This document shows, piece by piece, positions 57,220-64,000 of a stretch of DNA of 64,000 nt. Within the stretch, counting starts at the first letter, position 1; every line of letters starts with the position of its first letter. The DNA comes from Myxococcales bacterium (lineage in GTDB: Bacteria > Myxococcota_A > Bradymonadia > REDH01): NCBI GenBank assembly GCA_947496715.1, contig CANMDT010000001.1, forward strand, positions 30,799 to 94,798, read 5' to 3'. Under the pieces are notes generated by a model. It was not told where the DNA came from. It saw nothing but the letters and a program-made list of their open reading frames with translations, and did not search any database. Made by a program: the position numbers and the translations under genes.

Positions 57220-60192
57220 CTAAGGACAGGCCGGGTCGGTGGCGCAGTCGGGGTCGGCACAGTCGACGAAGGTATCGGTATCGTTGTCGAGGCCGTCGAT
57301 GCAGGAGGCCTCGGAGCCGTAGACCTCTGCGCAGGTACCGCGTGAGATGGTGAGGTTCCAGGTCCCGCTGTCGCCAGCGCCAAAGGTGTCGGCGAAGAGG
57401 AAGTAGGAGCTCGCGTTGGTCACAGCGAGGTCGATGCGGGCACCGTAGGAGGTCTCCGAGAAGTCGTCGCTGCAGGCGAGTTCGGAGGTGTCGTTCGAGC
57501 AGCTGGTCCGAGCATAGAGCACGGCATCGAAGTTGGCGCGTCCCTCAAGCTGCACGCAGATGTTGCCCGTCAGCGGCGAGCGCCAGCGGATGGCCTCCTC
57601 TTCGCCAAGACCGCCGCAGCCGCCCTCGCGGTTGGAATAGCTGGTCGTGCCGGTGAAGGTTCCGAAGCTGCCGATAGCGGTCGGCGTGGAGCAGCTGCCG
57701 TTGCCCGTCGGGGTGCAATCAGTGGAGGTGCACTGCGAGTCGTCGCAGTCGATGTCGCCGTCGAGGTCGTTGTCGAGGCCGTCATTGCAGACCTCGGGGG
57801 AGGCGATACAGACGAGCTGTGCAGCGCAGTCGGGGTCGGAGCAATCAACGAAGGTGTCTAGGTCGTTGTCGCGGCCGTCGGTGCAGACCTCGGGGAAGGG
57901 GATGCAGTTGAGGGCATCCACGCAGTCGGTGTCCGAGCAGTCCTCAAGACCGTCGAGGTCGTTGTCGAAGGTATCATCGCAGATCTCAGGCTGCGAACCG
58001 CAGGCCGGGCTGCCCGTGCAGGAGCTGTCTGCGCAGTCAATTGCCCCATCGGCATCGTCATCCACGCGGTTGTCGCAATACTCGGGCAGGGTGGCTGGGC
58101 AGGCGCCCGACTGGACCAGCAGGCGGTAGGTTCCGAAGGCGCTCGCGGTGTTGCCGTCGACCGACAGAAAGACAGTCCGGCCGGCTGTGAGCGAGGCCTC
58201 CGCCATCGACCAGGTGGAGGGGCCGTCGTTGGAGTCGCAGGTGATGAGGCTGCTCGTCGTGAGGCAGGCGCTGGTGAGGTAGACGGTGGTGTCGAAGGTG
58301 GCCTCGGTGATGATGAAGCACCAGTTGCCCGTGGTAGGTACGGTGACAGACCAGACGTCGTCGAGGCCGCCTGCGCCGGTCGAGCAGCCGGTGCGGCCCA
58401 GGTCAGAGGCACCGGTGGTGTCACCAGCATAGGTACCTGCGCCCGTGATGAGGTTGGGCGCCGTGCAGGTGCCGTCGGTGGGGGGCAGGCAGGCGGGCGC
58501 GGTGGAGCAGAGCGGGTCGAGGCAATCTACGAGACCATCGCGGTTGTTGTCTGCGGCGTCCGTGCAGTTCTCTGCGCAGAGGGGCGAGGCGGTGCAGAGC
58601 GGGTCGAGACAATCGACGAGGCTGTTGCGGTTGTTGTCGGTGCCATCGTCACAGACCTCTGCGCAGAGGGGCGAGGCGGCGCAGTCTGCGTCGGCACAGT
58701 CGGTGGCGCGGTCTCGGTCGTTGTCGAGGCTGTCGTCGCAGACCTCGGGAAGGACGATGCAGTTCGCATCGAGCGCGCAGTCGGCCGTGTCGGCACAATC
58801 GGTGAGGCCGTCGCGGTCGTTGTCGCGGCTGTCGTTACAGACCTCGGGCAGGACGATGCAGTCAACATCCGTCGCGCAATCCGCCGCGTCGGCGCAATCG
58901 GTGAGGCCGTCGCGATCGTTGTCGCGGCTGTCGTTACAGACCTCGGGAAGGCTGACGCAATAAGCATCGGTAGCGCAGCTCGTGTCGGCGCAATCCACCA
59001 GGCCGTCGGCATCGTCATCGAGGCTGTTGTTGCAGGTCTCGGTCAGCGTTGCGGGGCAAGAACCCGGGCGCACAAAGAGGCGGTAGTCGCCAAAGTCTTC
59101 AAGGCGGGAGCCGGTGACGAAGACGAAGTAGTCGGTCGTCGTGTTGAGGTTTGGCTCGGTTCGCGAGAGAATGCGCCCGGTGGGCGAAATGTCATCGTTG
59201 CAGGCGACCTCCGCACCGGCGTTGGTGCAGCCACGGCGGATGTCGATGACGGTATCGAAGTTGCCCTCCGTCACCCAGAAGCACCAGGTCCCCGCGCTCG
59301 TCGCGCGAAAGGTGAAGACCTCGTCGGGGCTGTCGGGGTCGAGGGCACAGATCGGGCTGATTGCGTCGGAGAGGCCGATGGTGGAGCCGTCGTAGATGCC
59401 GGGACCGGCAATGACGCGGGGGGCAAGGCAGGTGCCGGCGCCGTCCGCGGGGCCGCAGGCTGTGTCACCGATACAGTCGAGGTCGATACAGTCGGTGTAG
59501 CGGTCTAGGTCGTTGTCGATACCGTCGTCGCAGATTTCCGAAGTAGCGCCCCCCGTACAAACGGGAAGTGCGGAGCATTGGGCATCGGCACAATCGGTGG
59601 CGCCATCGAGGTCGTTGTCGATGCGGTCGTCGCAAATCTCGGCGGAGGCCTCGCAACCGTCTGGGATGCCGTTGGCGTTGGTGTCGAGGTTGTCGTCGAA
59701 GCCGGGGCAGACATCGCTGCCATTGCAGACGCCGTCGAAATCGGTGTCGTTGCCGGCGCCGCACTCCAGCGTGCAGTTGAACGAGCAGCCGTCGCCCGCG
59801 AGACGGTTGCCGTCGTCGCAGGCCTCTCCGGCCTCGATCGTGCCGTTGCCGCAGATGGGGGGGCCACTGGTGTCTACCGTGGTGTCTACCGTGGTGTCGC
59901 CTGCCGTGTCGGCGGCGGTGTCACCGGGGTCTGTGTCTGCGCTGGAGTCGGGGTCGGTATCAGCCGCAGTGTCTGCTGCGGTATCGGTTGGGTCGATGTC
60001 GGCCGTGGAGTCTGCAGCCGTATCCGCCGTCGTCGTGTCCTCAGCGGTGCTGCCGGTATCTGCCGTGTCGGCGCCAAAGATATCCGGACGACCTGCATCT
60101 GCCTCGGAGGTTTCGCCGCCCGTGCAGGCTGCGACAGTAAGCGACAGGAGCGAGGCGCCGAGAAGGTGAGCGGAGCGGCCGAGCAGATTCAT
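57220..60192 (-). CDS. Large Cys-rich repeat lipoprotein with three PPC-like domains
   Basis: The 990-residue product has lipobox TVAAC and a long Thr/Asp/Ala spacer (about 25-110). One DUF4215-like module (CGNGTIEAGEACDDGN, then GDGCSFNC) follows. Then come at least fifteen Asp/Cys repeats of the form DDGIDNDLDxxTDCIDxDC, grouped in blocks that alternate with three PPC-like beta domains (near TCLAPRVIAGPGIYDG, TCTAPNLITGAGTYAG and SCSTPTAIGSFGTFTG). Three blocks share a 33-residue unit (EVCNDSRDNDRDGLTDCAD). The repeats probably bind calcium and are held by disulphides, so the protein should form a stiff surface rod. Its paralogue lies just downstream. Function is unknown; adhesion or envelope structure is inference. 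Confidence 0.82.
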   Translation of the reverse strand: MNLLGRSAHLLGASLLSLTVAACTGGETSEADAGRPDIFGADTADTGSTAEDTTTADTAADSTADIDPTDTAADTAADTDPDSSADTDPGDTAADTAGDTTVDTTVDTSGPPICGNGTIEAGEACDDGNRLAGDGCSFNCTLECGAGNDTDFDGVCNGSDVCPGFDDNLDTNANGIPDGCEASAEICDDRIDNDLDGATDCADAQCSALPVCTGGATSEICDDGIDNDLDRYTDCIDLDCIGDTACGPADGAGTCLAPRVIAGPGIYDGSTIGLSDAISPICALDPDSPDEVFTFRATSAGTWCFWVTEGNFDTVIDIRRGCTNAGAEVACNDDISPTGRILSRTEPNLNTTTDYFVFVTGSRLEDFGDYRLFVRPGSCPATLTETCNNSLDDDADGLVDCADTSCATDAYCVSLPEVCNDSRDNDRDGLTDCADAADCATDVDCIVLPEVCNDSRDNDRDGLTDCADTADCALDANCIVLPEVCDDSLDNDRDRATDCADADCAASPLCAEVCDDGTDNNRNSLVDCLDPLCTASPLCAENCTDAADNNRDGLVDCLDPLCSTAPACLPPTDGTCTAPNLITGAGTYAGDTTGASDLGRTGCSTGAGGLDDVWSVTVPTTGNWCFIITEATFDTTVYLTSACLTTSSLITCDSNDGPSTWSMAEASLTAGRTVFLSVDGNTASAFGTYRLLVQSGACPATLPEYCDNRVDDDADGAIDCADSSCTGSPACGSQPEICDDTFDNDLDGLEDCSDTDCVDALNCIPFPEVCTDGRDNDLDTFVDCSDPDCAAQLVCIASPEVCNDGLDNDLDGDIDCDDSQCTSTDCTPTGNGSCSTPTAIGSFGTFTGTTSYSNREGGCGGLGEEEAIRWRSPLTGNICVQLEGRANFDAVLYARTSCSNDTSELACSDDFSETSYGARIDLAVTNASSYFLFADTFGAGDSGTWNLTISRGTCAEVYGSEASCIDGLDNDTDTFVDCADPDCATDPACP
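58741..58938 (-). repeat. Two adjacent 99-bp units of a 33-residue repeat
   Basis: Units start at 58741 and 58840 and are 99 bases each; a third, more diverged unit begins at 58939. They are in frame and encode VCNDSRDNDRDGLTDC-type blocks. The near-identity at DNA level indicates recent duplication. Confidence 0.85.
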
Positions 60193-61710: not shown

Positions 61711-62985
61711 CTAGCCGTTTTGCGACCTGGGATCGAGAACGTCGCGCAGCGCCTCGCCGACCACATTGAGCGCAAACAGCGTGAGGGTGAGGATGGAGCC
61801 AGGGAAGAGCAGCAGCCAGGGATAGGTCACCATGACGCCGGCGCGGGCGCCGTCGTTGGCGAGTGCTCCCCACGAGGTGTAGGGCGCCTGCACGCCGAGT
61901 CCGAGGAAGGAGAGGAAGGACTCCGTAAGCATCGTTTCGGGCACGGTCAGCGTGGCATAGACGAGGATGGGACCGAGCGCATTGGGGAGCAGGTGCTTGA
62001 AGAGGATGGAGGTGGTGGAGGCGCCAACGGCGCGGGCCGCCTGAACATACTCGAGGTTGCGGAGCGCAAGCACCTGGCCGCGGACGATACGGGCCATGGT
62101 GAGCCAGCTCATGGCGCCGATGGCGATGTAGAGCAGCCGGATGTCGCGGCCGAAGACGACCATCAGCAGGATGACGAGGAACATGAAGGGCAGCCCGTAG
62201 AGCACATCGACAGTGCGCATCATGAGGGCGTCGATACGGCCGCCATTCCAGCCGGCGACTGCGCCCCAGATGAGGCCGATGACGAGCGAGACGAGGGTGG
62301 CAAGCAGGCCGACCATAAGACTGACGCGGGCGCCGTAGACGAGTCGGATGGTGAGGTCGCGGCCGAGGCTGTCGGTACCGGCCCAGAAGGTGGCAGGGCG
62401 CGGGAGGCCAGGGAACTCGGTGGCGGAGAGGCGGCCATCGGCATCGGTGTCGAAGCGGCGGGTCCAGGCGGTGGCCTCACCGATGGGGAAGAGGTCGATG
62501 AGGGCACGGGCCTCCTCGAAGTTGAGCGTGCCGCTGCCATCCTTGTCGAGGCTCTTGAGGATGGCGGCGGCAGGTGCCGAGAGCGCTCGCGGCGCAGCGT
62601 CGAGTTCGGCCGGGTTGAGGGCGCCGTCGCCGTCGCTGTCGAGCATAGCTAGCTCTTCGTGGGCAAGCGCCTCCGAGAGTTCAAGCGCGGTCCACTGCCC
62701 ATCGCGGTTGAGGTCGGCGCGGGCGGAGGCCGCATCGGCGACGGGCGCGAGGAGGAAGTTGTCGCGCGGGATGCCACGCGCGCCGGGCGGCAGGTAGCGG
62801 TGGCAGGGGTGGTTCTCGACCACGGTGAAGCGGGTGAAGTGGCGTTCGACCAGCGGCTGCATGATGGCGAGAAGACTCACGAGCAGCAGGAAGACCAGAC
62901 TGGCCATGGCCAGCCGGTTCCTCTTGAAGCCGCGCCAGGCGCGTGCCGAGGGCGACTCGGGCTGTGACTGCACGGTGCCGCTCAT
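61711..62985 (-). CDS. ABC permease (OppC/DppC type) with four EF-hands in its periplasmic loop
   Basis: The 424-residue product is an inner-membrane permease of the peptide/nickel ABC family. TM1 (MASLVFLLLVSLLAIMQPLV) is followed by a periplasmic region of about 150 residues before the family motif FWAGTDSLGRD at 200-210. The family normally has about 30-60 residues here. The extra segment (84-192) carries four canonical EF-hand loops: DLNRDGQWTALE (91), DSDGDGALNPAE (116), DKDGSGTLNFEE (147) and DTDADGRLSATE (179), all with Glu at position 12. The rest is a standard BPD_transp_1 domain with HLLPNALGPILVYAT (EAA-like coupling helix). It shares 4 bases with the partner permease. Confidence 0.93.
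   Translation of the reverse strand: MSGTVQSQPESPSARAWRGFKRNRLAMASLVFLLLVSLLAIMQPLVERHFTRFTVVENHPCHRYLPPGARGIPRDNFLLAPVADAASARADLNRDGQWTALELSEALAHEELAMLDSDGDGALNPAELDAAPRALSAPAAAILKSLDKDGSGTLNFEEARALIDLFPIGEATAWTRRFDTDADGRLSATEFPGLPRPATFWAGTDSLGRDLTIRLVYGARVSLMVGLLATLVSLVIGLIWGAVAGWNGGRIDALMMRTVDVLYGLPFMFLVILLMVVFGRDIRLLYIAIGAMSWLTMARIVRGQVLALRNLEYVQAARAVGASTTSILFKHLLPNALGPILVYATLTVPETMLTESFLSFLGLGVQAPYTSWGALANDGARAGVMVTYPWLLLFPGSILTLTLFALNVVGEALRDVLDPRSQNG
62410..62736 (-). other. EF-hand insertion inside the permease
   Basis: Residues 84-192 of the permease. All four 12-residue loops keep Asp at 1, Asp/Asn at 3, Asp/Ser at 5, Gly at 6 and Glu at 12. Two pairs of hands are spaced by about 25 and 32 residues, as in calmodulin-like pairs. 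Because TM1 is N-in, the loop should face the periplasm, where calcium is plentiful. Confidence 0.85.
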
Positions 62986-63908
62986 GCCTGCTTGCCGTCG
63001 AGGGTGATGCGGGGGTCGATGACTGAATAGACGAGGTCGACCGCAAGGTTCAGCATGACCAGGAGCACCGAGTAGACGAGGATGGCGCCGAGGACGAGGA
63101 AGTAGTCGCGGTTGAAGGCCGCATCGACAAAGAAGGTGCCAATGCCCGGCACATTGAAGACCCGCTCCACGACGACCGAGCCGGTCAGTACGGCGGCGAA
63201 GGCGGGGCCGAGAAAGCTAACGACCGGGAGCAGTCCGGCGCGCAGGATGTGGACGAGCACAACACGCGTTTCGCTCGCTCCCTTGGCACGGGCGGTGCGG
63301 ACATGGTCGAGTCGCGAGACTTCGAGCATGCCCGAGCGCGCAAGCCTTGAGACGTAGGCCATGTAGAAGCAGCCGAGGCTGATGCTCGGCAGGATGGAGT
63401 CGCTCCAGCCAGCCCAGCCGCCGGTGCGGGTCCATCCGAGTCCGAGGGCGAAGACGAGGATGAGTAGCGGTCCGAGCACGAAGTTGGGCACCGAGATGGC
63501 GAGGGTGGAGATGGCCATTGTCGCGTGGTCCCAGAAGGTCCGCGGGCGCATGGCGGCGAGGATGCCGAGCGGGATGCCGACGAGCAGCGCGAAGGCCATG
63601 GCCTGCAGCCCGGTGATGAGCGAGTAGGGGAGCGCGGCGAGGAGGATGTCGGCGACCGGCGCCTCCTGCTTAATGGAGGGGCCGAGGTCGCCGTGGGCGA
63701 GACGGCCGATGTAGTCGAAGTACTGCGCGGCGAGGGGCTTGTTGAGGCCATACTGCTCCTCGAGCATGGCCTCAATCTCGGGGGGCAGGTCGCGGTCTTT
63801 GGAGAGCGGGCTTCCGGGCGCCAGCTTCATGACCAGGAAGGAGAGCGAGAGGACCACGAACAGGACTGCGAGGTTCTGCAGGAGGCGTGCGCCAAGGGAG
63901 CGGAGCAT
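62982..63908 (-). CDS. ABC permease (OppB/DppB type)
   Basis: I chose the ATG at 63908 (308 residues), which gives the family start MLRSLGARLLQNLAVLFVVLSLSFLVMKLAPGSP; the longer start at 63965 adds 19 hydrophilic residues and would overlap the likely end of the preceding gene. The product has six TM helices, the N-terminal TM with the LAPGSPL motif, EEQYGLNKPLAAQYF in the periplasmic loop, and the coupling helix region RTARAKGASETRVVLVHIL. It forms a heterodimer with the downstream permease to import peptides or similar ligands. ATPase genes are not in the window. Confidence 0.92.
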   Translation of the reverse strand: MLRSLGARLLQNLAVLFVVLSLSFLVMKLAPGSPLSKDRDLPPEIEAMLEEQYGLNKPLAAQYFDYIGRLAHGDLGPSIKQEAPVADILLAALPYSLITGLQAMAFALLVGIPLGILAAMRPRTFWDHATMAISTLAISVPNFVLGPLLILVFALGLGWTRTGGWAGWSDSILPSISLGCFYMAYVSRLARSGMLEVSRLDHVRTARAKGASETRVVLVHILRAGLLPVVSFLGPAFAAVLTGSVVVERVFNVPGIGTFFVDAAFNRDYFLVLGAILVYSVLLVMLNLAVDLVYSVIDPRITLDGKQA

Positions 63909-63909
63909 G

Positions 63910-64000
63910 TTAGCGCCCTGCTCCGGCCTGCGGCCGTTTGCGGATGTGGCGTGCGAGGTGGACATCCCGCAGGTTGGCGTGCCAGCCGTCGATCTAGACT
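63910..64000 (-). pseudogene. Possible 3' end of a peptide-binding protein gene, with an in-frame stop
   Basis: One base before the permease ATG is a TAA that ends a frame reading GWHANLRDVHLARHIRKR. Substrate-binding proteins of the Opp/Dpp family often end in a similar GWxxNxRDxH motif, and such a gene is expected here. However, a TAG (63994-63996) lies in the same frame two codons before the Gly. So either a frameshift or stop lies at the edge, or the likeness is chance. Only 30 codons are visible. Confidence 0.3.

Follow-up and report, generated by a model that had tools for sequence, protein, structure and literature searches.

At the far end of the window, the whole stretch of 64,000 nucleotides analysed here, an oppB gene and an oppC-type gene lie on the minus strand (Table 1). 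In the genus of the window (loci L010–L012), the gene for the binding protein (SBP), oppB and oppC are found together and no ATPase gene adjoins them; in other members of the class the full set SBP-oppB-oppC-oppD-oppF is present, with an SBP_bac_5 protein, OppB and two ATPases encoded next to one another. Across the family loci the gene is surrounded by SBP-oppB-oppC, usually with oppD-oppF next. The encoded protein, EF-OppC, forms the OppC half of an Opp/Dpp-type importer of the class that holds the Bradymonadales, and peptides are its predicted cargo. The contig ends at the window end (62982–64000), and a second contig of the same assembly (L040, 7163–8197) ends with SBP-oppB. The oppB of this second contig is 95% identical to that of the window over 1035 bp. 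The bin could thus contain a mixture of two strains, or be broken at this operon.

Table 1. Positions in the window of the oppB-oppC pair and of the regions and calcium-type loops of EF-OppC.
Feature	Residues	Coordinates	Strand	Remarks
oppC-type permease with EF-hand insert, 424 aa		61711..62985	minus	ATG overlaps oppB stop (ATGA)
OppC_N region with TM1	11–49	62839..62955	minus	Pfam OppC_N E 1.7e-10; hydrophobic segment 22–48
Periplasmic insert, located after TM1 and ahead of the GTDxxGRD motif that precedes TM2	~61–198	62392..62805	minus	
EF-hand loop 1 (EF1)	91–102	62680..62715	minus	DLNRDGQWTALE
EF-hand loop 2 (EF2)	116–127	62605..62640	minus	DSDGDGALNPAE
EF-hand loop 3 (EF3)	147–158	62512..62547	minus	DKDGSGTLNFEE
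EF-hand loop 4 (EF4)	179–190	62416..62451	minus	DTDADGRLSATE
Normal permease core (TM2–TM6, EAA loop)	199–424	61714..62391	minus	BPD_transp_1; E. coli OppC match
Partner permease oppB, 327 aa		62982..63965	minus	Canonical scoop region, no insert

EF-OppC has an ordinary permease built around an additional domain. Pfam finds OppC_N (11–49), EF-hands (~90–191) and BPD_transp_1 (237–420, E 1.1e-27) in that order, both transporter domains scoring above cut-off, and the EF-hand_1, _5, _6 and _7 models exceed their curated cut-offs on the insert. The protein scores 282 bits against NCBIfam equivalog cut-offs of 350 (Opp4C) and 433 (PRK15406), and is thus an OppC-type permease that falls outside any one named equivalog. 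The AF2 model of the full-length protein has a pLDDT of 80, rising to ~90 in most of the insert, and superimposes on E. coli OppC (8z21_B) with a Z of 26.5, an rmsd of 2.4, 278 of 278 residues aligned and 48% identity. Because the whole of E. coli OppC is aligned, all but ~130 residues are normal OppC, in agreement with the original prediction that the rest of the permease is normal; its partner was likewise correctly said to lack the insert, the OppB of the window being canonical. The systems of E. coli, OppBCDF (8z21) and DppBCDF/DppABCDF (8z1v–8z1z), share the permease core, the OppC_N region, the EAA loop and the operon type, but E. coli OppC has a short TM1–TM2 loop where EF-OppC carries its lobe. 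This extra segment is longer than the residues 84–192 noted earlier, which had been placed correctly at 62410–62736 of the reading frame.

Is this segment a genuine EF-hand domain, or an acidic stretch that resembles one by chance? All four loops keep D1, D/N3, D/S5 and E12. When the residues of the insert were shuffled 20,000 times a single EF loop arose in 0.3% of trials and never more than one, and the shuffles together with the conservation described below rule out a chance acidic stretch. The four hands had been called perfect. This is accurate for the liganding positions (1, 3, 5 and 12), all of which are kept, but the strict PROSITE pattern PS00018, as we wrote it, accepts EF2 and EF4 only; it is broken by a W at position 8 of EF1 and by an A at position 13 of EF3. 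The lobe modelled alone with AF2 (pLDDT 87.8) has helices flanking the loops, the helix-loop-helix arrangement of an EF-hand, and a bridge residue at position 8 of each loop. With all of these marks present, the stretch is a real EF-hand domain. The permease is also the sole match to EF-hand_7 in its own genome.

The closest likenesses of the lobe are to free calcium- and lanthanide-type proteins. A Foldseek search with the lobe alone placed lanmodulins first and calmodulins next, all with modest scores; VIA-align matched calmodulin lobes at a modest Z of up to 6.0 over 69 residues, and a sequence profile search of the PDB returned calmodulins at E values of ~1e-14 to 1e-17. Calmodulin-type proteins share the four canonical 12-residue loops, but here the lobe lies within a membrane protein and EF1 and EF2 are separated by 13 residues (in 26 of 26 class members), compared with ~25 in calmodulin. 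Lanmodulin is, like the lobe, a periplasmic bacterial protein with four EF-hands, one of its hallmarks (PMC10232371), and with a short EF1–EF2 gap, but it is a free protein and not part of a permease. An EF1/EF4 and EF2/EF3 nested pairing in lanmodulin style is only hinted at by the alignment ranges. Two further hallmarks rule out membership of the lanmodulins: the spacing of 12–13 residues between all adjacent hands is absent (13/19/20 in the window, 13/18–40/20–22 in the family), and none of 104 loops has proline at position 2. These comparisons bear on the suggestion that the role of the domain is to concentrate or select a metal, calcium or a lanthanide, on an imported metallophore. The lanmodulin-like Foldseek ranking and first gap favour it, but the missing proline, the wider remaining gaps, an NCBIfam lanmodulin score of 27.7 against a cut-off of 135 and a core nearest to peptide OppC make it very improbable.

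The insert sits between TM1 and TM2 (from ~215), and because the N-terminus is cytoplasmic this location is periplasmic in the known six-TM topology. Cysteines are consistent with this. In most members the insert has either no cysteine or a pair, the sites differing by lineage: in one family of the class a pair is conserved in the stretch from EF2 to EF3 (L025 has a third cysteine), most members from other classes have a pair around EF1, and the remaining class members have no insert cysteine, save Cys61 in the family of the window. Lineage-specific pairs are expected of periplasmic disulfides and support the placement. Topology and Pfam together bear out the location originally proposed for the domain, the periplasmic TM1–TM2 loop of OppC. 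Cys61 itself (62803–62805) is unpaired, lies just after TM1, and is conserved in the family of the window (HPCHR/HNCLR/NPCLR) and absent elsewhere in the alignment. In E. coli DppB a scoop motif between TM1 and TM2 enters DppA (PMC12136057). The OppB scoop lies in the same region of OppB, which makes the EF lobe its pseudo-symmetric counterpart in OppC.

The partner permease varies as well. Where EF-OppC occurs in other Myxococcota classes, the scoop of its OppB is directly followed by an additional domain resembling a lipoyl/biotinyl (barrel-sandwich) domain, for example SPVAGTLVRFLVKPGQHV (L086, L077 and L147; also L074, L081, L088, L093, L098, L100, L106 and L146); Pfam Biotin_lipoyl matched it in three of seven tested, with borderline scores. 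The Bradymonadaceae-type OppB (L029, L031, L036, L044) has a cysteine-rich scoop insert, NPCLKEREANTCxCxxExxLDRPVFP...C, that the OppB of the window lacks. Elsewhere in the window, 57220–60192 (minus strand) encodes a secreted, cysteine-rich protein of 990 aa in which repeats of the type EICDDxxDNDxDGxxDCxDxxC recur many times; it is Asp-rich and possibly metal-binding, and Pfam gives only a sub-threshold DUF4215 match.

The EF-hand insert is present in 35 of 57 genomes of the class, which includes Bradymonadaceae and Lujinxingiaceae MAGs, and this recurrence rules out both an assembly artefact and a feature of a single genome. Pfam EF-hands were found in all 26 class members examined. In 18 sampled genomes from other Myxococcota classes the loop is longer (~180–240 residues), and a strict pattern recognises between one and three canonical, well-placed EF loops in it, mostly at the EF3 and EF4 positions; Pfam was run on eight of the 18, with EF-hand matches that ranged in strength and in some cases stayed below cut-off. 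Two additional insert-bearing members were found beyond these 18. Further Myxococcota have insert-free orthologues with ~50–56% core identity and an empty site, ...PPSxxHxFGTDxLGRD.... Comparison with these orthologues places the insertion point in the TM1–TM2 loop, after the PPG/PPS motif and ahead of the H/W-x-GTDxxGRD motif. On the core tree the sequences with the insert all fall to one side of a single branch, with weak support (41/70); the tree allows one gain, and the domain was probably inserted once in the Myxococcota.

A DNA pattern for EF4 and its junction (52 bits by our own estimate) was scanned over 84,980 species. It matched 35 contigs, all of which fit the insert profile and have Myxococcota, deltaproteobacterial or uninformative MAG names, with the exception of one Klebsiella label; that contig is the same contig as one in a genome of the same phylum (G141). 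The pattern is strict and misses, for example, L016–L018 (GSD), and the contigs were placed by name, so restriction of the insert to the Myxococcota is likely, short of proof. Spread by viruses or plasmids was also considered and rejected: IMG/VR held no match to the junction pattern and no relative, and among the matches listed from plasmids query coverage was at most 66%, none reaching 80%. Three plasmid OppC matches that were inspected had no EF-hands.

Other inserts occupy the same loop, which is a general insertion hotspot. OppC paralogues of the same class (L113, L114, L115, L119, L122 and L041:6044–7297) have a different, TM-containing insert of ~120 residues, and the OppB partner of one (L041:7263–9044, 593 aa) is also enlarged. 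Rhizobial and Agrobacterium plasmid OppC proteins (L149, L150, L151) have a soluble insert of ~75 residues; the segment in Agrobacterium WP_131258970.1 (L150) is at the same TM1–TM2 position as the EF lobe, but has no EF-hand loops. The paralogue and rhizobial inserts are unrelated to the EF-hand domain. Such a tolerant loop might simply have acquired a functionless, neutral decoration. This is very improbable given how the domain has been kept. Identity among 26 class members is 79% in the ligand columns, compared with 49% in other insert columns (p 4.5e-6). Within-genus dN/dS is 0.11–0.21 for the insert, 0.02–0.06 for the core, and 0.02–0.06 for the 24 EF codons where dS could be estimated. 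These values indicate that the insert is under purifying selection.

What, then, might the domain do? The explanation we favour, to which we give an even chance, is that of a calcium-stabilised periplasmic lobe that helps to dock or orient the binding protein, with structural calcium loaded at ambient levels. The EF domain would most likely bind calcium at the levels normally present in the periplasm, the loaded domain would fold into a rigid acidic lobe beside the mouth of the permease, and this lobe would contact the SBP, helping to dock or orient it and so affecting transport. Calcium would serve as a cofactor for the structure and would not signal from one minute to the next. The docking role is plausible from the position of the lobe. 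In Myxococcus, calcium-dependent stabilisation of a periplasmic or surface protein has been reported, as has periplasmic calcium that tracks the environment (PMC8833165), and these observations make ambient loading a fair default. Two points count against docking: any periplasmic decoration may land in an insertion hotspot, and the insert-free orthologues presumably work without an EF domain.

Alternatively, in line with the original prediction of calcium-dependent uptake or calcium-controlled docking, the domain may be a true calcium switch, in which binding or loss of calcium at the EF-hands would alter docking or gating and thereby make peptide uptake dependent on external calcium. The four intact sites in the genus of the window and the strongly constrained ligand positions fit such a switch, and for myxobacteria environmental calcium can fall as low as 10–150 uM and sets periplasmic calcium (PMC8833165). 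However, in some Bradymonadales (L030–L032) the domain persists although several or all of its loops depart from the canonical pattern, and in L031 no loop is canonical by the criterion used here. A strict switch is weakened by these degraded relatives and by the calcium that is normally plentiful in the periplasm, and we consider it rather unlikely; the loss of sites in some lineages favours structural docking over an obligatory switch.

The lobe could also bind a partner other than the SBP, such as peptidoglycan, an anionic lipid or another periplasmic protein, with calcium only holding the fold. The net charge of the loop, −7 to −26 across the class, would suit this, and the extra domain in OppB of other classes means that both permeases show added surface. 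In the three loci with listed ORFs, however, no recurring non-Opp neighbour stood out, and we think such a partner quite unlikely.

Permease, EF-hand and operon all belong to known kinds, but their combination is absent from the literature searched. No description of an EF-hand in an Opp permease was found in the openly available full-text articles searched, and the survey of Dx[DN]xDG motifs (PMC3123361) includes none. The original prediction that no such insert was known therefore stands for this literature, but the insert is not the curiosity of one gene that it appeared to be: within the Myxococcota, one subfamily of OppC has the EF domain as a conserved feature, across dozens of species.

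In type I ABC importers, regulation usually acts through the ATPases or the binding proteins. A calcium-type domain conserved on the side of the permease that faces the SBP would offer a distinct route by which docking is controlled or assisted. Orthologues that have four sites, degraded sites or no insert form a clean natural comparison set for this. It is unlikely, but conceivable, that in this OppC lineage of the Myxococcota the four-site lobe is a calcium-operated clamp on the SBP, with uptake gated by external calcium. If true, this would be a calcium-regulated type I ABC importer.
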